The notes beneath the pieces were generated by a model. That model had not been told where the DNA came from. It saw only the letters and a list, made by a program, of their open reading frames with translations, and made no database searches. A DNA stretch of 34,225 nt from an uncultured Granulosicoccaceae bacterium (lineage in GTDB: Bacteria > Pseudomonadota > Gammaproteobacteria > Granulosicoccales > Granulosicoccaceae). Shown in pieces: positions 9,661 to 20,026 of the stretch. The DNA is taken from the NCBI GenBank assembly GCA_938003855.1, contig CALKXD010000039.1, positions 1-34,225 on the forward strand, given 5' to 3'. The position numbers and the translations under genes were made by a program. Positions within the stretch are counted from its first letter, which is position 1. Each line of letters begins with the position of its first letter.

Positions 9661-10176
9661 CTACGCCTGTTGCTGCCGCGAGCTCAATTGCCTTGCCGCG
9701 AGCATACAGACAACAAATACGACAGCCCAGGTAATTGCCAGCAGTGCTACGGCGCGCGGCCAGGGTGTGCCCACGTCATAGTCGGTGAGGCGGGTACCGG
9801 TGATATAAGTCAGTGGCCCGGCAATGCCACCAGCAATAAACGCCACTGGTAGTCTGGCCTGAAACCACCGAGTGCTGTGATTCAGTGTGGTGGCAAAAAT
9901 AGCCCACAACGACACCAGCCAGAGCGGTGGCAGAACTGAGTTGTCGGGACTCAGTAACACCTGCGTTGCGATCAGACTGCTGTCCACTGCGACCCCCAGC
10001 ATCGTGATTGCCAGTATCAGTATCAGTTCACGCGGATCATCACTGATAAAATGCTGATGAAAAAAAAGCGCTGCGGTAACCGCGACGACGGCGACAGTGC
10101 TGCCGCCCAGCACACAGACCAACCAGACAACATTAAACAGCACGGCGTTGACTATCACCCTCTGGATTCGGGTCAT
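9661..10176 (-). CDS. DUF2878-like integral membrane protein
   Basis: A 171-residue hydrophobic protein with about five predicted membrane segments. The stretch P-P-L-W-L-V-S-L-W-A-I-F-A-T-T-L-N-H-S (about 83-101) is characteristic of the DUF2878 family as I remember it. Molecular function is unknown. Genes of this family commonly sit with CFA-synthase-like, DUF1365 and amine-oxidase-like genes, as here. It is last in the ChrR-associated minus-strand cluster, 203 bp after the cfa gene. No ECF-type promoter was found directly in front of it, so read-through from the cfa promoter is the simplest assumption. Confidence 0.7.
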   Translation of the reverse strand: MTRIQRVIVNAVLFNVVWLVCVLGGSTVAVVAVTAALFFHQHFISDDPRELILILAITMLGVAVDSSLIATQVLLSPDNSVLPPLWLVSLWAIFATTLNHSTRWFQARLPVAFIAGGIAGPLTYITGTRLTDYDVGTPWPRAVALLAITWAVVFVVCMLAARQLSSRQQQA

Positions 10177-10379: not shown

Positions 10380-11750
10380 CTAGTGGCTGGCACGGTAATC
10401 GGGCTTGGCCATGACAACCTGCGATGTACCGATGACCCGTTCGGTAAAACCACCTTCGCAATAGCACAGGTAATACAGCCACATGTTAATAAAGCGATCG
10501 TCAAATCCCTGTGCACGTGCCTGATCTATTTTTTTACAAAAAGCCTCACGCCAAAGCCGCAGGGTTTTAGCGTAGTCCTGCGCCATATCGGAGACGGTTA
10601 GAATACACATATCGGTATCTTTGGCGACATGCTCGGCGATCACACCCATTGATGGCAGACAACCACCGGGAAATATATAGCGCTGTATAAAATCAACAGA
10701 ACGCCGCGCTTGCTCGTAGCGCTGATCAGCAATAGTGATTGCCTGAATTGCCATTAATCCTTGCGGGCTCAACAGACTGCTGCACTTGCTGAAGTAGTCG
10801 GAAAAATACTGATGACCGACGGCCTCGATCATTTCAATGGAGACGAGTTTATCGTACACGCCATCAAGCTCGCGATAGTCTTTCATCAGCACCGTCACCT
10901 GATCACTAAGGTTGGCGTCTGCGACGGCCTTACGGGTGTACTCGTGTTGTTGCGCCGATAGCGTGGTGGTGGTTACCCGGCAGCCGTAGTGCCGGGCGGC
11001 ATGCATCGCCATGCTACCCCAGCCAGTGCCAATTTCAACCAGGTGATCGTCGGGCTTTAGCTGCAGCTTGCGGCAGATCAGATCAAGCTTGGCTATCGAG
11101 GCCTGCTCGAGGGTGATGTCTTTGCCGTCAAACAGCGCCGATGAGTACATCATGGTGGGGTCTAGGAACAGCTCAAAAAAATCATTGCCCAGATCATAGT
11201 GCGCAGAGATATTTTCTTTCGAGCGACTGACGCTGTTGCGGGTAAAGCGTTCAAGCATTCTGAGCGCCAGGCGATTGGATAACGACCGCTCTTTATCCAT
11301 GTTTTTGAGCGCGCTCATGTTGGATACAAAAAATCGCACCACGCTGACGAGGTCTGGCGTGGTCCAGTGCCCATCCATAAAAGCCTCGGCCGCCCCCACC
11401 ACACCGTTGACAGCAATCGCTGTGAAAGCCGATGGACTGACAACCTTGATGTGTGCAACGACCGGCTCACCGGGATTTGAGCCGGGCAGATCAGCAGTCG
11501 CTGCCGGGTGCCCGAACAACTTGCTCTCACCGCTTTCTTCAAGCGTCAGCACTCCCCGCTGCATTTTGCCCAAATGCCGATGCACCAGCACTCTGGCCAT
11601 GCGCTCTGCCGTACTGCCGGAACCAGCCTTCTTTGCGTCGCTGCCAAGCGTTAGCGCTTTTACCCATTTGCCTACCGCCACAGGTAGCCCGGTTTCAGTA
11701 ATTCCGCCCCGTGTCAATGACGTGGAGTCCGGCTCCATTGCATCGCTCAT
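10380..11750 (-). CDS. cfa: Cyclopropane-fatty-acid synthase family SAM methyltransferase
   Basis: This 456-residue protein acts on unsaturated acyl chains of membrane phospholipids using S-adenosylmethionine. Landmarks are H-Y-D-L-G-N-D-F-F-E-L-F-L-D-P (184-198), the SAM motif V-E-I-G-T-G-W-G-S (238-246), S-I-E-M-I-E-A-V-G-H and Y-I-F-P-G-G-C-L-P-S. The bicarbonate-binding cysteine of E. coli Cfa (in Y-S-C) is serine here (S204 in M-Y-S-S-A). This fits the divergent CfaA/UfaM-like branch found next to ChrR more than classic Cfa. Its own TGATCC-N16-CGTA promoter lies 72-99 bp upstream, placing it in the RpoE/ChrR regulon. Whether the product is a cyclopropane or a methylated (furan-precursor) fatty acid cannot be decided from sequence. 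Confidence 0.88.
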   Translation of the reverse strand: MSDAMEPDSTSLTRGGITETGLPVAVGKWVKALTLGSDAKKAGSGSTAERMARVLVHRHLGKMQRGVLTLEESGESKLFGHPAATADLPGSNPGEPVVAHIKVVSPSAFTAIAVNGVVGAAEAFMDGHWTTPDLVSVVRFFVSNMSALKNMDKERSLSNRLALRMLERFTRNSVSRSKENISAHYDLGNDFFELFLDPTMMYSSALFDGKDITLEQASIAKLDLICRKLQLKPDDHLVEIGTGWGSMAMHAARHYGCRVTTTTLSAQQHEYTRKAVADANLSDQVTVLMKDYRELDGVYDKLVSIEMIEAVGHQYFSDYFSKCSSLLSPQGLMAIQAITIADQRYEQARRSVDFIQRYIFPGGCLPSMGVIAEHVAKDTDMCILTVSDMAQDYAKTLRLWREAFCKKIDQARAQGFDDRFINMWLYYLCYCEGGFTERVIGTSQVVMAKPDYRASH

Positions 11751-11821: not shown

Positions 11822-11849
11822 ACTACGTAAAAATAATTGGAATGGATCA
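11822..11849 (-). promoter_or_regulatory. ECF11 (RpoE/ChrR-type) promoter of cfa
   Basis: On the minus strand TGATCC (11849-11844) is followed after exactly 16 bp by CGTAGT (11827-11822). The hexamers and spacing match two other sites in front of rpoE and the SnoaL-led operon. Transcription would start near 11815, giving a leader of about 65 nt before the cfa ATG at 11750. The adjoining end of the DUF1365 gene (11965-12005) can fold into nested short hairpins that might separate the two transcripts. Confidence 0.72.
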
Positions 11850-11975: not shown

Positions 11976-12908
11976 TCACGGTTGAGCCCGCTTCGGGTGA
12001 GGTACAAACGGGAGACCCTTCAAAGACAATTTCACCGCCTGCCAATAAATACCGGCCGCCACTTTCAGCGTCATCACCGGGTAGCGCAACAGCACCCGGT
12101 TTAGCGTCGCAGCGCTGATTTCTATCCGCTGGAAGTTGACTCCGGCGTCAAATGTTTTTTCGGCCAGTGCCGCAGTTGCACCACGGTTACCAGCCTCCGT
12201 GGAAAGCGATTCACCAACCCGCCCGGTTTTTTCAACTGAGTCAACGTCACCTTGCTGATCGGTATCTCTATTACCCTCAGCGACGGCAATATTGCTGAGG
12301 GAATAGCGCAATGTTGCGCCGGGTGCCTGACCTCGCCAACGGTACATCATATCCATTGGCATAAACGGCGAGACATGCATGCGTTTAGTAAAATCGATTG
12401 CCTGATCCGTTTGATGTTCACGCAAGTCAAGGACATAACAGGTGCGTTCTCCCCACGGAGTATTGGTTACCTCAAGCAATAATGCCTGCAGCGCTTTACC
12501 GTCGGCGGCAAAGCAGTAGTAACAGCTGATCGGGTTGATACTGTGCCCGAAGTAGCGCAGATTAGTCAGCAGCCGCACCGGCCCCTGAGGATAGAAGTCA
12601 AGCCTATCGGCTACCGCAGCGCGGACAGCACACTCTATATCGTGCGCACCGCACCGTGAGGCGCGACTGCGGCTATCGATAGAATCCGTGCGGGGTAATG
12701 ACCCGTCAGCCGCCGTATATTTGAAAAAATCATCGCGACAAAAACGCGCTGGTGCGAGTCTGCGTTCAGACCACAAGGGGCTCAGCGACATGACGTCGTC
12801 GACTTCATCCAGATCAAGGTACATCATAAACACGTTATACGAAAACTTGTGAACACGCGGTGAATGGCGCGTGTGCCACACAGCCCCTTGATAGATCGCG
12901 CTATGCAC
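11976..12908 (-). CDS. DUF1365 family protein
   Basis: A 310-residue DUF1365 protein of unknown biochemical role. The family pattern is plain: H-S-A-I-Y-Q-G-A-V-W-H near the start, H-K-F-S-Y-N-V-F-M-M-Y-L-D-L-D-E, F-Y-P-Q-G-P-V-R-L-L-T-N-L-R-Y-F-G-H, N-P-I-S-C-Y-Y-C, and F-M-P-M-D-M-M-Y-R-W. A polar insert of about 40 residues, rich in D, E, G and T, interrupts the region after Y-S-L-S-N-I. The frame is open to 12971, but the GTG at 12908 gives the family N-terminus and overlaps the stop of the upstream FAD gene by 8 bp. DUF1365 genes are regular companions of the amine-oxidase-like and Cfa-like genes in ChrR regulons, suggesting a step in fatty-acid modification. Confidence 0.85.
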   Translation of the reverse strand: MHSAIYQGAVWHTRHSPRVHKFSYNVFMMYLDLDEVDDVMSLSPLWSERRLAPARFCRDDFFKYTAADGSLPRTDSIDSRSRASRCGAHDIECAVRAAVADRLDFYPQGPVRLLTNLRYFGHSINPISCYYCFAADGKALQALLLEVTNTPWGERTCYVLDLREHQTDQAIDFTKRMHVSPFMPMDMMYRWRGQAPGATLRYSLSNIAVAEGNRDTDQQGDVDSVEKTGRVGESLSTEAGNRGATAALAEKTFDAGVNFQRIEISAATLNRVLLRYPVMTLKVAAGIYWQAVKLSLKGLPFVPHPKRAQP

Positions 12909-14217
12909 TGTTGACAACTTCAGCCGTGGTTGACCCTGTAATACCCGCCGTTTGATTGATCGCATTGACAACGTTCAGCGCACTTGCCACACCGTCTTCA
13001 TGAAACCCGTTTCCCCAGTAGGCACCACAGAACCAGGTGCGCCCGACACCCGACAGCTCCTGCCAGCGTGCTTGCGCCGCGATACCCGGCAGGGTAAAAA
13101 CCGGGTGGCTGTAGGTGTATCTGCCGAGGATTCTGGCAGGATCAATGTTGCCGGTCTGATTGAGACTTACGCAATAGGTAGTACGGGATTCAAGCCCCTG
13201 TAGAATATTCATGTTATAGGTCAGACGGGCCAGACCATCATGACTGCCGGGTTGCCGGCCTTGTATGCGATAGTTCCAGCTCGACCAGGCAAGTCTGCGC
13301 TGCGGCAGCAGTGACTCATCGGTGTGCAGCACAACGTCATTTTCCTGGTAGCTAATGGCACCGAGGATGTCGACCTCCAGCGCGGTCGGTTTTGCCAGTA
13401 GTTGCAGTGCCTGATCGCTGTGAGTTGCCACCACCAGTGCATCAAAGGATTCGGTAACCGGGTCTGCACCATTACGACGATACACCAGAGTGACATTGTC
13501 ATCGGTGCGGTCAATACTCTGTATTGACACACCGGTTTGAATGGCGTCTGCAAAGCGCGCCGTGAGTGGCGTCAGATACGCGGCGCTGCCACCGACAATT
13601 GTGCGCCACTGCGGCCGGTTTTTAACCGACAACAAGCCATGGTTTTTGAAAAAACGCACAAAAAACAGCAGTGGGAAGTCAAGCATTTCGGCATCGCCTG
13701 ACGACCAGATCGCAGCCCCCATCGGCACCAGGTATTTATCGATAAATCGCTGACTGTACTTATGCTGTGTAAGATACTCACCGAGAGTGGCCTGTGCTGA
13801 TATCGTGTTGTTGTCGAGATCTTTTATTGCCTCTTTATTAAAGCGCAGTATCTCCAGTAGCATGCGCCAGTGCGCTGGCCGCAGTAGATTCATCCGGTCC
13901 GCAAACAGCGTCGACAAATTGCTGCCGGCGTATTCGATGCCGCTCAATTCACAACTGACGCTGAAACTCATTTCCGTGGGGCGGGTTTCAACGTCGATTT
14001 CTTCCAGCAGAGAGATAAACTTCGGGTAGGTCCAATCGTTGTAAACAATAAAACCGGTATCCACGGCTTGCCGCTCACCGGCATGTGTCACATCAATTGT
14101 GGCGGTATGACCGCCAATGCGATCAGCGCTCTCCAGCACGGTCACCGAGTGATGCTTACTCAGATAATACGCGGCCGTCAGGCCCGAAATACCTGATCCG
14201 ATAATGGCAATATTCAT
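12901..14217 (-). CDS. FAD-dependent amine-oxidase-like protein
   Basis: A 438-residue NAD(P)/FAD-binding oxidoreductase related to the amine oxidase and phytoene desaturase fold. The dinucleotide-binding motif G-S-G-I-S-G-L-T-A-A-Y (7-17) starts right after the N-terminus, followed by the ribose-binding E and R-I-G-G-H-T. The C-terminal F-C-G-A-Y-W-G-N-G-F-H-E-D-G-V is the typical FAD-contacting end for this subgroup. The frame extends to a GTG at 14238, five bases after the SDR stop; the ATG at 14217 gives the normal N-terminus and is preferred, though neither has a strong ribosome site. It lies between the SDR and DUF1365 genes in one operon. Its homologues in ChrR regulons have been proposed to act on membrane fatty acids, for example as desaturases. 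Confidence 0.85.
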   Translation of the reverse strand: MNIAIIGSGISGLTAAYYLSKHHSVTVLESADRIGGHTATIDVTHAGERQAVDTGFIVYNDWTYPKFISLLEEIDVETRPTEMSFSVSCELSGIEYAGSNLSTLFADRMNLLRPAHWRMLLEILRFNKEAIKDLDNNTISAQATLGEYLTQHKYSQRFIDKYLVPMGAAIWSSGDAEMLDFPLLFFVRFFKNHGLLSVKNRPQWRTIVGGSAAYLTPLTARFADAIQTGVSIQSIDRTDDNVTLVYRRNGADPVTESFDALVVATHSDQALQLLAKPTALEVDILGAISYQENDVVLHTDESLLPQRRLAWSSWNYRIQGRQPGSHDGLARLTYNMNILQGLESRTTYCVSLNQTGNIDPARILGRYTYSHPVFTLPGIAAQARWQELSGVGRTWFCGAYWGNGFHEDGVASALNVVNAINQTAGITGSTTAEVVNSA

Positions 14218-14243
14218 AGCGTTATATTTTTTTGTCACTGACT

Positions 14244-15038
14244 TCAGGTGGAGGACTCATTACGCGCAAGGCGCGGCCCGATAACCCGGTACCAGAGCGA
14301 CGGGAACAACGCGGCAAGTTTCAGAGAAAACCATAATTTAAACGGAAAATTAACAGTGCGCTTTCTTTTGCTGACTCCGGCAATAATGCAGTCTGCCGCC
14401 TGATCACCCTGCATCAAAAACGGCATAGGAAAATCGTTACTGTCGGTCATTGGTGTTTCAACAAAACCCGGATTAACGACCGTCACATCAATTTTTTGAT
14501 CAGTGAGATCGAGCCGCAGTGCATCAAGCATATAGATGGCGGCAGCCTTCGATGACCCATAGGCCTCTGCACGCGGCAGCCCGACCACCGCAGACATACT
14601 TGCCACGCCGACAATCTGCGGGGCATTACCTGAGCGCTTCAATAGTGGCAGTGCCCCCTGAATGGCGTTAACCATACCAAAGACGTTTACTTCGTACACC
14701 CGCCTGAATAAATCTGTTTTCATATCGGCGTTGTCAATGTATTCACAACGACCCGCACAATAGATCAGCATATCGAGTCCGCCAAGTGCTGTTTCAACAG
14801 AACTTAACACCGATGCCATTTGCTGATCATCGGTGACATCGCAGGCAACCGGAAACAACTTGCCTGCCCCCCCCGATGAAGCCGCCTCTAACGCCACTGC
14901 GTCCAGACCAACGACATTACGGCCGCTGATTGCCACCTGATTGCCAGCGGCGGCAAGTTTCAGCGCCAGTGACTTGCCGATACCCGACCCGGCACCAATT
15001 AACCAGATGCGTTTGCGGCGTATCATAGGGGACAGCAT
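14244..15038 (-). CDS. Short-chain dehydrogenase/reductase
   Basis: A 264-residue classical SDR that oxidises or reduces a hydroxyl or keto group with NAD(P). The cofactor motif G-A-G-S-G-I-G is at 15-21, and a modified N-A-G-like Y-C-A-G at 93-96. The catalytic S147, Y160 and K164 appear in S-M-S and Y-G-S-S-K, and P-G-F-V-E-T-P-M follows. The C-terminal 50 residues (K-R-K-R-T-V-N-F-P onward) are basic and hydrophobic, suggesting membrane association, as in many lipid-acting SDRs. It follows the SnoaL-like gene by 52 bp and precedes the FAD gene by a few bases. The substrate is unknown; the context suggests a lipid. Confidence 0.88.
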   Translation of the reverse strand: MLSPMIRRKRIWLIGAGSGIGKSLALKLAAAGNQVAISGRNVVGLDAVALEAASSGGAGKLFPVACDVTDDQQMASVLSSVETALGGLDMLIYCAGRCEYIDNADMKTDLFRRVYEVNVFGMVNAIQGALPLLKRSGNAPQIVGVASMSAVVGLPRAEAYGSSKAAAIYMLDALRLDLTDQKIDVTVVNPGFVETPMTDSNDFPMPFLMQGDQAADCIIAGVSKRKRTVNFPFKLWFSLKLAALFPSLWYRVIGPRLARNESST

Positions 15039-15090: not shown

Positions 15091-15516
15091 TTAATTTCCT
15101 AAGCGGTTTTTCAGATACAGCACACAAGGCCCGAGCACCGGGATATTTTCGTATAGTAGTGAGCCCACATCGAAGTAGTCTTCGTGTCTCACAATCAACT
15201 CATTAAATTGCACGAAGGTCGCCCCTCTGACGACAATCTCCCGACCTCCGGCAAGACGCTTGTGCTGCAGTCTCATGTCCCACCTGATACTGGCCTGCTG
15301 ATCCGCGACAATCTCGTCAAGATAGGTAAAACCGCAACTGATAACATTTTTGTACATGCTGTCAAAATAGCCGGCCAGCTCTTCGATCCCGTCCATGCGA
15401 TGCATTGGATCAACGAAAACAATATCCGGGGAGTACACCGCACGTAACGCGTCGGGGGTCACCACCGTCGCGTCACGGTACATGTGCTTGAACGTTTCGA
15501 TAATCTCTGTTGCCAC
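15091..15516 (-). CDS. SnoaL/NTF2-like protein, first gene of the ChrR-associated operon
   Basis: A 141-residue small alpha-beta barrel protein with the NTF2-like pattern: helix I-I-E-T-F-K-H-M-Y, then A-V-Y-S-P-D-I-V-F-V-D-P-M-H-R-M-D-G-I and a C-terminal V-R-H-E-D-Y-F-D segment. Members are enzymes (isomerases, cyclases) or ligand-binding proteins; no specific activity can be assigned. The frame is open to an ATG at 15588 whose ribosome site is badly spaced. The GTG at 15516 follows AAGGTGG at a normal distance and gives the usual family length. The gene is transcribed from a TGATCC-N16-CGTATG promoter about 180 bp upstream, leaving a leader of roughly 177 nt. Confidence 0.8.
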   Translation of the reverse strand: MATEIIETFKHMYRDATVVTPDALRAVYSPDIVFVDPMHRMDGIEELAGYFDSMYKNVISCGFTYLDEIVADQQASIRWDMRLQHKRLAGGREIVVRGATFVQFNELIVRHEDYFDVGSLLYENIPVLGPCVLYLKNRLGN

Positions 15517-15699
15517 TATGCCACCTTTATTGTGTGCCTGATTCTCGTGATTGCCACGGAGACTGTTGTATTTATGTGCCGACCTCATCTTCCGGACTGC
15601 CCCCGGCGCGTGGCCTCACTGCACGGGTCCGGGCAGTACCCCGAGCCGCTTGCGGATACTGGCGATGGGGAGCAATCTGCTGCGCTTTCACAACAACAC

Positions 15700-15727
15700 C
15701 ATACGCAACGAGTCGGTATCCGGATCA
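15700..15727 (-). promoter_or_regulatory. ECF11 (RpoE/ChrR-type) promoter of the SnoaL-SDR-FAD-DUF1365 operon
   Basis: The minus strand carries TGATCC (15727-15722), a 16-bp spacer and CGTATG (15705-15700). This matches, as I remember it, the published consensus for promoters of the RpoE-ChrR family. It points away from rpoE toward the SnoaL-like gene. Its -35 lies back to back with that of the rpoE promoter, 28 bp away. Confidence 0.8.
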
Positions 15728-15755
15728 CATCGCAAGGCACAGGCATTCCCGGGAG

Positions 15756-15783
15756 TGATCCAACCCGGCAAACGCCTCGTACT
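15756..15783 (+). promoter_or_regulatory. ECF11-type autoregulatory promoter of rpoE-chrR
   Basis: TGATCC (15756-15761), a 16-bp spacer and CGTACT (15778-15783) on the plus strand, about 135 bp upstream of the rpoE ATG. The -10 element deviates from CGTATG at one base. Transcription would begin near 15790, giving a leader of about 128 nt. The site indicates that the sigma factor drives its own operon. Confidence 0.72.
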
Positions 15784-15917
15784 ACAAGTAGTCTCCAACA
15801 GAGAAGACGGTGATACCATTGATGGTTGCAACCCCTATTCAACTTACGAGTGCCGGCATCACGCGTGGCCGCAGCGCTACTGTGCTCCCACTAACGCGCC
15901 GGACGGGCAAGGCCTCA

Positions 15918-16496
15918 ATGCCAGAGAAACAACAAGCGGTGAAAGACGAATGGGCCCCACTGCTGGCTAAAGTCGCGGAAAATCAGGATCGTCAGGCTTT
16001 TACCCGTCTGTTCGCGCACTTCGGACCGAAAATAAAAGCGTACGGCATGTCTTTAAACAGCATGTATACCTCGGTCGAGATGGCCGATGAGCTGGTTCAG
16101 GAGGTGATGATAAAGGTCTGGGAGAAAGCCCGCTACTTCAAGCCTGAGAAAGCCAGTGCCAGCACCTGGATCTTTGCCATAGCCCGCAACTGCCGGATAG
16201 ACTACCTGCGCAAAATGAAGCGCATCGACAGTCCGTTGCGGGTCGAAGATTTATGGCCCGTGTCCGAAGAACCGGATCCGATCACCACCCTTAATCAATC
16301 CCGAAACGAGCAGAGTATCCAATCGGTGGTCAACACGCTACCGAGAGAACAGGCATCGATCCTGAGAGCAATTTACGTCGAAGGCAAAACGCACTCGGAG
16401 GTGGCCAGCCAGAACAACCTGCCACTCGGCACGGTAAAGTCCAGGGTCAGACTGGCCATAGAAAAGCTTCGCACAGGGCTGCCAAACCATGAATAA
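15918..16496 (+). CDS. rpoE: ECF sigma factor RpoE of the ChrR-controlled (ECF11) type
   Basis: A 192-residue extracytoplasmic-function sigma factor. Sigma region 2 spans about 27-100, with M-A-D-E-L-V-Q-E-V-M-I-K-V-W-E-K and T-W-I-F-A-I-A-R-N. Region 4 spans about 135-188 and has the helix-turn-helix L-P-L-G-T-V-K-S-R-V-R-L-A. The start at 15918 is preceded by AAGG and fits the family N-terminus (E-W-A-P-L-L-A-K-V-A-E); earlier in-frame starts at 15810 and 15822 add sequence unlike the family. The stop overlaps the chrR ATG by 8 bp, the usual sigma/anti-sigma coupling. Group members respond to singlet oxygen and recognise TGATCC-type -35 elements, three of which lie in this cluster. Confidence 0.93.
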   Translation: MPEKQQAVKDEWAPLLAKVAENQDRQAFTRLFAHFGPKIKAYGMSLNSMYTSVEMADELVQEVMIKVWEKARYFKPEKASASTWIFAIARNCRIDYLRKMKRIDSPLRVEDLWPVSEEPDPITTLNQSRNEQSIQSVVNTLPREQASILRAIYVEGKTHSEVASQNNLPLGTVKSRVRLAIEKLRTGLPNHE

Positions 16497-17235
16497 AGCA
16501 ACGACACAACGACAACACACGCCACTGGATCGGATGGCAGATAATATGACTCAATTTCACCCCGACACTCATTGGCTGGCAGAATATGTCTCTGGCTCCC
16601 TGCCTGAAGCACAGGCGCTTTGCATTGCCACCCATCTTGAATTCTGTCCCCAGTGCAGAGCCGACATCAATGCACTGACCGAGATTGGTGCCAGTCTGTT
16701 TAGCGCGACTGACGACACAACGCCTCTGAACCCGCAGGTCCTCGATGCGGTCTGGCAGAGCATCACCCCTGACAACAATCCCCCGCCCGCGGTAGCAATT
16801 CAAGCAGAGTCACACCCGACCAGCGTGCCCGCCTACCCGGACAGCTTTCCGCGTGCGCTGCGCAAATTGATACCCGATGGTACATCCGGTCTACCGTGGA
16901 AAAACATCGGCTCGCGGCTGAGTGTGGCGAAACTGCACCGCATCGACGCTGAGCGTGACGTATCACTACACCGGCTTCAGCCCGGTGGTGTGGTGTCTGA
17001 TCATGATCACGGCGGCCGGGAGATCACGGTGGTGCTGTCTGGCAGCTTTTCGGATCAGAACGGCCAGTATCACCCCGGTGATTTTCTGGTCAGAGAACCC
17101 GGGGAAACACATCGGCCGACAGCAAGCGAAGACAACGAGTGTATCTGCCTGGCAGTTTGCGATGCTCCGGTTAAATTTACCGGTCTCTTCTCAAGGCTGC
17201 TAAACCCGCTGGTGGCGTTGCAGCACCGGCACTAG
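16489..17235 (+). CDS. chrR: ChrR-type zinc-binding anti-sigma factor with C-terminal cupin
   Basis: A 248-residue cytoplasmic anti-sigma factor. The zinc-binding N-terminal domain has H24 in F-H-P-D-T-H-W, H49, C53 and C56 in A-T-H-L-E-F-C-P-Q-C-R, equivalent to H6/H31/C35/C38 of Rhodobacter ChrR. The C-terminal cupin (about 135-225) keeps a full metal set: H172, H174, E178 and H208. In Rhodobacter the N-terminal half sequesters RpoE and the cupin half is needed for release on singlet oxygen; the intact motifs argue for the same here. A 20-residue polar N-terminal extension precedes the zinc domain, so a later ATG (M16 or M20) might be the true start. Confidence 0.93.
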   Translation: MNKATTQRQHTPLDRMADNMTQFHPDTHWLAEYVSGSLPEAQALCIATHLEFCPQCRADINALTEIGASLFSATDDTTPLNPQVLDAVWQSITPDNNPPPAVAIQAESHPTSVPAYPDSFPRALRKLIPDGTSGLPWKNIGSRLSVAKLHRIDAERDVSLHRLQPGGVVSDHDHGGREITVVLSGSFSDQNGQYHPGDFLVREPGETHRPTASEDNECICLAVCDAPVKFTGLFSRLLNPLVALQHRH

Positions 17236-17467: not shown

Positions 17468-20026
17468 ATGCAGACACATGCACAGGCTGTAGTGATTGGT
17501 GGTGGGGTGGTCGGCTGCTCGGTGTTATTTCATCTGGCAAGGGCCGGCTGGACTGACGTACTGCTGATCGAGCGCTCCGAACTGACCTCGGGCTCATCGT
17601 GGCATGCGGCGGGCGGTTTCCATACTCTCAACGGTGACCCCAACGTCGCCAGGCTGCAAGCCTATACGGTATCGCTCTACGAAGAACTGGAAGCACTGTC
17701 CGGTCAATCCTGCGGACTGCATCTCACCGGTGGTGTAATGATGGCGGACAGCAAAGAACGCATGGACTTTCTGCGCTACGTGCACGCGACCGGTCGTGCA
17801 CTGGGCATGGAAACCGAAATCATCACGCCCTCTGAGGCGAAATCGATGTTCCCACTGATGGACGAGTCGCATTTTGTCGGCGCACTGTGGGACCCGGTGG
17901 AAGGCCACCTCGATCCTTCAGGGACAACGCACGCCTATGCCAAGGCCGCGCAGAAACTGGGCGCCGGCATTGAACTGCGCAACCGCGTCACCGACATCAC
18001 CCAAACCCCTGATGGCACGTGGAGCGTGCATACAGAAAAAGGTATTGTGAAAACCGAACATGTCGTCAATGCCGGTGGCTTGTGGGCGCGTGAAGTCGGA
18101 CGCATGGTCGGGCTGGAGTTACCGGTGCTGGCGATGGAGCACATGTATTTACTCACCGACACGATGCCTGAAGTCGAAGAATTTAATCAGAGTACCGGCA
18201 GAGAGCTGGTGGGTGTGATCGACTTCAAAGGTGAAATCTATACCCGTCAGGAACGCAGCGGACTGCTGTTGGGCACTTACGAAAAAGCCTGCAAGCCCTG
18301 GGCACCGCTTGAGACATCGTGGGACTTCGGCCACGAACTTCTACAACCCGACCTCGATCGCATTGCCCCGTCACTGGACATTGGCTTCAAGCACTTTCCG
18401 GCATTTGAGCAGGCCGGTATTAAGCAAACCATCAATGGTCCGTTTACCTTTGCACCGGATGGCAATCCGCTGGTCGGTCCGGTGCAGGGCCTGACCAATT
18501 TCTGGTCGGCGTGTGCTGTGATGGCCGGGTTCAGTCAGGGCGGCGGCGTGGGACTGACACTGGCAAACTGGATGGTGCACGGTGATCCGGGCGCTGATGT
18601 GTTTGCAATGGACGTGGCACGCTTCGGTGACTTCACTACCTTGCGCTACACCAACGCCAAGGTCAGAGAAAATTACTCGCGCCGCTTTTCTATCCGGTTC
18701 CCGAATGAAGAACTGCCTGCTGCCCGCCCGCAACAGACAACGCCTCTATATGACATCATGCTGCGGGACAACAACGCGGTGATGGGTGACACCTGGGGGC
18801 TGGAAACTCCGCTGTGGTTTGCACCGGCAGGCACTGACGCGGTAGATGATCTGTCGTTTCATCGCTCCAACGATTTTCAACATGTCGCAAACGAGGTCAA
18901 TGCCGTGCGCAACTCTGTTGGCGTGACCGAGATTGCCAACTTTGCCAAGTACCGCATCAGCGGCAGTGGTGCCGAGCACTGGCTAAGCCACCTGATGACT
19001 AACACAATGCCAGCCACCGGGCGTCTGGTCCTGACCCCGATGCTTAATCATAACGGCAAATTAATCGGTGATTTCACCATCGCCAAAGCGGACGAAAACC
19101 TGTTTTACGTATGGGGCTCATCGGCAGCGCAAATTTATCATATGCGCTGGTTTGAGCAACTTCTACCCGACGACGGCAGTGTGGCGATTCACCGTTATGG
19201 ACAAACTCTGGTTGGCCTGTCTATCGCCGGTCCGAACGCACGCAAGGTATTGGCAGAACTCACTGATGACAATGTCGACAATACCCACTTTCGATTCATG
19301 CAACATCGCAGCATGGATGTGGCCGGCTGCCCTTGCCTGGTAAACCGCATCACCTACTCCGGCGACCTTGGCTATGAAATCTGGATGGAGCCCACCTACG
19401 AGCGGCAGGTCTATCTGGCGATCAAAGACGCCGGTGCGCAATACAATATAGCCGACTTCGGTATGCGTGCACTGTTGTCGATGCGGCTGGAAAAAAACTT
19501 TCCCAGCTGGTTTGCCGAACTGCGCCCGGTCTACGGACCCTTCGAAGCGTCTATGGAGCGCTTCATCAAACTTGAAAAAAACACCTTTATTGGACGCGAC
19601 AAAGCAGCAGAAGAGCTGGCCGGCGGTCCTAAGCTTAAACGCGTTTCATTTTCGATAAGCACAGAAAAAACCGACGTTATGGGCGACGAACCCATCTGGG
19701 CACTAATCCCTGATGCGATGGGTGATATCACCCCGCTACTAGCCATTGAAAAGCCACACGGATTTGGTGCACCACGCTTTGACAAACAGGGCATGGAAAC
19801 CGCAAAAGCGACACCGCAAATCGACGGCAACTGGCGCGTTGTGGGCTGGGTGACATCCGGGGGCTATGGCCACTCGGTGCAATTGTCACTGGCGCAGGGC
19901 TATATACCCTCGGCCCTTGCCACTGACGATATAGAGTTTGAAATCGAAATTCTAGGTGTGCGCTGTGCTGCAAAAATAGAGATAGCGCCACCGTTTGATC
20001 CACAGGGCACAAAAATGCGCTCCTGA
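17468..20026 (+). CDS. Dimethylglycine/sarcosine dehydrogenase-like FAD-GcvT protein
   Basis: An 852-residue two-part flavoenzyme. Residues 1 to about 390 are a DAO-type FAD domain with G-G-G-V-V-G (11-16) and H46 in S-S-W-H-A-A-G-G. This histidine matches the one covalently linked to FAD in dimethylglycine and sarcosine dehydrogenases. A middle FAO_M-like segment leads to a GcvT-type folate-binding domain (about 440-830, with S-G-D-L-G-Y-E-I-W and the final barrel W-V-T-S-G-G-Y-G-H-S). Such enzymes oxidatively demethylate N-methylated glycines and pass the one-carbon unit to tetrahydrofolate. The exact substrate (dimethylglycine, sarcosine or a relative) is not determined. AGGTGGGAC precedes the ATG. 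It ends 9 bp from the convergent OmpA-family gene. Confidence 0.88.
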   Translation: MQTHAQAVVIGGGVVGCSVLFHLARAGWTDVLLIERSELTSGSSWHAAGGFHTLNGDPNVARLQAYTVSLYEELEALSGQSCGLHLTGGVMMADSKERMDFLRYVHATGRALGMETEIITPSEAKSMFPLMDESHFVGALWDPVEGHLDPSGTTHAYAKAAQKLGAGIELRNRVTDITQTPDGTWSVHTEKGIVKTEHVVNAGGLWAREVGRMVGLELPVLAMEHMYLLTDTMPEVEEFNQSTGRELVGVIDFKGEIYTRQERSGLLLGTYEKACKPWAPLETSWDFGHELLQPDLDRIAPSLDIGFKHFPAFEQAGIKQTINGPFTFAPDGNPLVGPVQGLTNFWSACAVMAGFSQGGGVGLTLANWMVHGDPGADVFAMDVARFGDFTTLRYTNAKVRENYSRRFSIRFPNEELPAARPQQTTPLYDIMLRDNNAVMGDTWGLETPLWFAPAGTDAVDDLSFHRSNDFQHVANEVNAVRNSVGVTEIANFAKYRISGSGAEHWLSHLMTNTMPATGRLVLTPMLNHNGKLIGDFTIAKADENLFYVWGSSAAQIYHMRWFEQLLPDDGSVAIHRYGQTLVGLSIAGPNARKVLAELTDDNVDNTHFRFMQHRSMDVAGCPCLVNRITYSGDLGYEIWMEPTYERQVYLAIKDAGAQYNIADFGMRALLSMRLEKNFPSWFAELRPVYGPFEASMERFIKLEKNTFIGRDKAAEELAGGPKLKRVSFSISTEKTDVMGDEPIWALIPDAMGDITPLLAIEKPHGFGAPRFDKQGMETAKATPQIDGNWRVVGWVTSGGYGHSVQLSLAQGYIPSALATDDIEFEIEILGVRCAAKIEIAPPFDPQGTKMRS

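Follow-up and report, generated by a model that had tools for sequence, protein, structure and literature searches.

Divergent predicted ECF11 promoters between rpoE-chrR and a putative furan fatty acid operon in an uncultured Granulosicoccaceae bacterium

The stress circuit formed by an ECF11 sigma factor, RpoE, and the anti-sigma factor ChrR was originally characterized in a photosynthetic bacterium, Rhodobacter sphaeroides, where an RpoE promoter precedes both the rpoE-chrR and the RSP_1091-1087 (ufaD-ufaO) operons, and where RSP_1091 and RSP_1090 are required for proteolysis of ChrR (PMC3818230). The furan fatty acid chemistry of the Ufa enzymes has been described, UfaO being a DUF1365 protein (PMC7380195). 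The consensus obtained by ChIP in P. syringae is TGATCC-N16-CGTA (PMC5507510), the transcription start of Shewanella rpoE2 has been mapped 3' of TGATCC/CGTATT (PMC4336711), and deletion of chrR in S. maltophilia raises a divergent lipid cluster by about 165- to 310-fold (PMC11832516).

We describe here a related region in a 34,225-nt stretch of DNA from an uncultured Granulosicoccaceae bacterium (the window, by which we mean this whole stretch; Table 1), and find it very probable, judging from its sequence, that the region provides divergent control by an ECF11 RpoE-ChrR stress system that drives both flanking operons. The sigma factor has the R. sphaeroides protein as its best PDB match at 129.6 bits, with the next ECF structure at 46 bits, and in this alignment its residue 8 pairs with residue 9 of 2q1z; the likely start is the ATG at 15918, in a reading frame that is open from a GTG at 15810. 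The chrR gene overlaps rpoE by 8 bp, and its product scores 168.5 bits against TIGR02451 (cut-off 124.5), with H24, H49, C53 and C56 corresponding to the zinc ligands H6, H31, C35 and C38 of 2z2s, and the cupin residues HxH...E...H also lining up with that structure. By these matches and kept residues the two genes are identified as an ECF11 RpoE-ChrR pair, as an earlier, sequence-only reading of this DNA had named them. Beyond chrR lies a DAO-GcvT (dimethylglycine dehydrogenase-like) gene (17468-20026, + strand) that occupies the same place, at 77-88% identity, in three relatives (L061, L062, and L064, where it is in two frames), a conservation that exceeds that of the sigma factor itself.

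Table 1. Predicted promoters and genes of the divergent region, with two further candidate targets in the same genome. Positions refer to the window unless a locus and contig are given.
Feature	Position	Strand	Basis or remark
P1, ECF11-type promoter (predicted)	15702..15727	-	exact pattern, TGATCCGGATACCGACTCGTTGCGTA; toward SnoaL-SDR-ufaD-ufaO
P1 elements	-35 TGATCC 15722-15727; -10 CGTA 15702-15705	-	
P2, ECF11-type promoter (predicted)	15756..15781	+	exact pattern, TGATCCAACCCGGCAAACGCCTCGTA; toward rpoE-chrR
P2 elements	-35 TGATCC 15756-15761; -10 CGTA 15778-15781	+	
P3, third ECF11-type promoter (predicted), before ufaM	11824..11849	-	exact TGATCC-N16-CGTA
RpoE, ECF11 sigma factor	15918..16496	+	PDB 2q1z (R. 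sphaeroides RpoE)
ChrR, zinc anti-sigma factor with cupin domain	16489..17235	+	TIGR02451, PF12973, PDB 2z2s
SnoaL-like gene	15091..15588	-	PF12680
Short-chain dehydrogenase (SDR)	14244..15038	-	PF00106
ufaD homologue, FAD-dependent, amine-oxidase fold	12901..14238	-	PF01593
ufaO homologue, DUF1365	11976..12971	-	PF07103, E=1e-70
ufaM homologue, CFA-synthase-like methyltransferase	10380..11750	-	CMAS, E=3e-88
DUF2878 membrane protein	9661..10176	-	PF11086
SDR-photolyase operon and convergent DPRP gene	L173 645-2165; 2893-5213	+; -	contig C132; exact ECF11-type site
SOUL haem-binding protein gene	L025 784-1467	-	contig C179; exact N16 site 33 bp upstream

The same reading had placed two opposed TGATCC-N16-CGTA sites between these genes, with 28 bp between their -35 hexamers, one facing rpoE-chrR and the other the SnoaL-SDR-FAD-DUF1365 operon, and all of this holds: both P1 and P2 are exact, both have a 16-bp spacer, the hexamers are separated by positions 15728-15755, and P2 stands upstream of the rpoE-chrR operon itself. 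The window has three exact matches to the N16 pattern where shuffling expects 0.14, and at the genome's own N16 rate the probability of three or more is about 8e-5. From that same rate (16 sites), 0.0008 sites are expected in the 329-bp intergenic region between rpoE and the SnoaL-like gene, and the probability of finding at least two there is about 3e-7. A scan of the 6.84 Mb genome with the looser TGATCC-N15-17-CGTA pattern, which had been suggested as a way to define the full regulon, does not serve that end; it returns 36 matches, about the background number, most of those examined fall inside open reading frames, and with the pattern at background genome-wide the regulon cannot be defined by sequence alone. 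For the same reason the significance of P1 and P2 rests on their position.

Comparison among genomes adds to this. In the genus, a close ECF11 sigma factor is patchily distributed, occurring in 7 of 14 genomes; the divergent pair is exact at four loci (L062, L063, L064, and L065), and at a fifth (L066), which is cut by the contig end, the sigma-facing site is kept. More widely, we collected the regions upstream of ECF11 sigma genes at 80 named loci in the Alpha- and Gammaproteobacteria. Since many of these loci are closely related, the counts do not represent independent events, and the Fisher test on them overstates their independence. The operon-facing site is present at 49 of the 53 loci with divergent ufa-type genes (no recognisable site was seen at the other four), compared with 1 of the 27 remaining loci. 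The sigma-facing site is found at 65 of the 80, or 59 under a stricter N16 criterion, and under this criterion shuffled upstream regions are expected to yield about 0.5 operon-facing and 0.65 sigma-facing loci, as against the observed 49 and 59. The spacer is 16 bp in 78 of 87 exact hexamer pairs. Conservation in related genomes, which the sequence-only reading had proposed as a test, is thus seen in both classes with fixed 16-bp spacing, and back-to-back promoters are the usual layout wherever ufa genes diverge from rpoE, in keeping with the positive feedback already known. That reading had also held that the pair directly indicates sigma autoregulation and coupled induction of the operon. 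Both are strongly supported by the comparison, since the N16 sites are conserved, the operon-facing site tracks the ufa genes, and the consensus is proven in P. syringae and Shewanella, but the support is indirect and the word "directly" was too strong.

The genes leftward of P1 run in the order SnoaL, SDR, FAD protein, DUF1365, CMAS, and DUF2878, and the FAD protein, DUF1365, and CMAS genes, standing in a row, encode all three enzymes of the furan pathway. What had been described as a lipid-modification operon can accordingly be named more exactly, and is best read as a predicted furan fatty acid pathway of UfaD, UfaO, and UfaM, with ufaM having a third site of its own. The ufaD neighbours in congeners show 65-68% identity. 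The SnoaL-like gene probably starts not at 15588 but at the GTG at 15516, which has AAAGGTGG upstream, and homology in congeners starts only at residue 20-28. The true start of ufaO may similarly lie downstream of the TTG at 12971, as the Pfam match opens at residue 26. We also note that the UfaO homologue is 331 residues long, the R. sphaeroides protein having 250, and that about 300 of its residues cover 234 positions of the DUF1365 profile, so that it carries poorly conserved insertions. The DUF2878 gene, which adjoins ufaM in two relatives (L063 and L068), is probably the last of the unit.

Annotation lumps UfaM-type proteins with cyclopropane fatty acid synthases. The bicarbonate ligands of the E. 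coli CFA synthase are Glu239, His266, and Tyr317 (PMC11387697). In the window UfaM, Q336 stands at the position of His266 and E309 and Y393 are kept, and every member of the UfaM group that we read has Gln for His266 and Ser or Ala for Cys139, with Glu239 and Tyr317 retained. A separate CFA synthase in one congener (L071 of G009) retains both the Cys and the His and provides an internal control. With the His266 to Gln change, and with a score of 271.5 that falls under the Cfa equivalog cut-off of 400, a canonical cyclopropane fatty acid synthase is ruled out for this gene. Gln at the bicarbonate His position is a possible marker for telling the two groups apart.

P3, which was absent from the sequence-only reading, lies 74 bp ahead of ufaM inside a 225-bp gap. 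A counterpart at the same position has TGATCC in L065 (G002) and TGATTC in L063 (G001), and none is present in four other congeners (G012, G009, G004, and G011); being kept in three of the seven congeners with ufaM, P3 is ruled out as a universal feature.

Elsewhere in the genome, an exact N16 site is situated 44 bp upstream of an SDR-photolyase operon, and a photolyase-related (DPRP) gene lies a short distance beyond, convergent with it. The site before the SDR gene is exact in G002, reads TGATCT-N17-CGTA in G004, and was not found in G011; none of the six congeners in which the SDR gene occurs without a close ECF11 sigma factor has it. The site upstream of the SOUL gene is near-consensus in two congeners (TGATCT-N16 in G011 and TGATCC-N17 in G009), and the SOUL protein is a possible, unreported member of the regulon that could bind photosensitising porphyrins; we found no link between SOUL proteins and ChrR or ECF11 in bacteria in the part of the literature covered, which is weak evidence of novelty. 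Other intergenic N16 matches (L020, L024, and L026) were set aside because they lacked either a suitably located start downstream or a connection with the known regulon.

Three other explanations of the region were considered. P1 and P2 could have arisen by chance, the region being an ordinary divergent one with a sigma-70 promoter, and the near-background frequency of the exact pattern over the whole genome speaks for this. However, in 2000 dinucleotide shuffles of the intergenic region no exact site arose on the + or the - strand, the sites are kept across the Alpha- and Gammaproteobacteria, and no sigma-70-like promoter was found in the intergenic region, the number of such promoters and of terminators in the wider region around the cluster being no higher than chance. 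As far as comparison allows, coincidence is refuted already, and we give it a vanishingly small probability. It is also very unlikely that P1 and P2 are used by another ECF sigma factor and that rpoE-chrR is not autoregulated. The genome does encode other ECF sigma factors (five matches in our search), but those remaining are remote, with E values no better than 8e-11, the site tracks ECF11 sigma genes over the 80 loci, and absence of the SDR sites in congeners without a close ECF11 sigma factor points the same way.

A less radical departure accepts the sites as ECF11 promoters, but supposes that the signal is superoxide or some other membrane-damaging agent and that lipids are altered without furan formation. 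Singlet oxygen as a possible inducer here is borrowed from R. sphaeroides, and S. maltophilia warns against assuming it. However, homologues of UfaD, UfaO, and UfaM are all present and adjacent, the R. palustris homologues sufficed for furan fatty acid synthesis (PMC7380195), and a light-linked stress would fit a predicted regulon that includes photolyase and SOUL genes, such that we consider this alternative unlikely, if appreciably less so than the other two.

We therefore favor an RpoE-ChrR circuit with a furan fatty acid output. The sites with their conservation, the gene identities, and the diagnostic residues are observed in the sequences, and for transcription from the sites, the lipid product, the feedback, and the inducing signal we draw on its relatives. 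In unstressed cells the zinc-containing ChrR would hold RpoE, and loss of ChrR, triggered by an oxidant (in the model organism, singlet oxygen or organic hydroperoxide), would leave the RpoE-polymerase free to act. At P2 this would yield more rpoE-chrR, at P1 the SnoaL, SDR, UfaD, and UfaO products, and at P3 a separate output of ufaM. UfaM, UfaD, and UfaO would then take the cis-vaccenate chains of phospholipids through methylated forms to furan fatty acids, and two of them, UfaD and UfaO, would also promote ChrR breakdown, as they do in R. sphaeroides. Because these two proteins would act on ChrR, and both operons would be driven from one short region, a positive feedback loop would be closed.

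The closest sequenced relative, G012, offers a variation on this arrangement. Both of its promoters (in L061, at 1590-1615 on the - strand and 1703-1728 on the + strand) read TGAACC-N16-CGTA, and the helix of its sigma factor that reads the -35 element is PVSTVKSR, where the others among about 110 ECF11-type sigma factors inspected have P[LIVM]GT[VI]KSR, a change of PLGT to PVST; no other genome has TGAACC in both promoters, and no other of these sigma factors has this helix. We tentatively suggest that sigma factor and promoters changed together, as a natural and minimal drift in promoter specificity of an autoregulated sigma factor, although we think this somewhat doubtful, and the match, a single case, could be coincidence. 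If true, the drift would have been eased by the two main promoters sitting side by side.

The window is a further instance of a known circuit, and extends a well-studied stress response to a new gammaproteobacterial lineage. As in R. sphaeroides, the ECF11 sigma factor and ChrR genes adjoin ufaD-ufaO and the sites are of the TGATCC/CGTA class, but here SnoaL and SDR genes come before ufaD, and ufaM belongs to the cluster and is preceded by a separate site, whereas ufaM of R. sphaeroides (RSP2144) is located away from this region, next to the photolyase gene RSP2143. The rpoEc-chrR-chrA/smlt2375-2367 system of S. maltophilia likewise has a divergent lipid cluster under sigma factor control with CFA-synthase-type genes, but differs in its third gene, chrA, its two CFA synthases, and a lipocalin, and its main reported phenotype is superoxide tolerance. 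Shewanella oneidensis rpoE2-chrR (SO_1986-1985) shares the promoter class, and it is there that the rpoE2 start was mapped; its neighbouring gene with an ECF11 promoter encodes a Lon-domain protease (SO_1987) and its cfa-containing operon is elsewhere, although SO_4169-4170 (a photolyase and a short-chain dehydrogenase) parallels the SDR-photolyase operon of this genome. The differences are of local detail, namely that ufaD is preceded by SnoaL and SDR genes, and that ufaM is part of the cluster and has a site before it.
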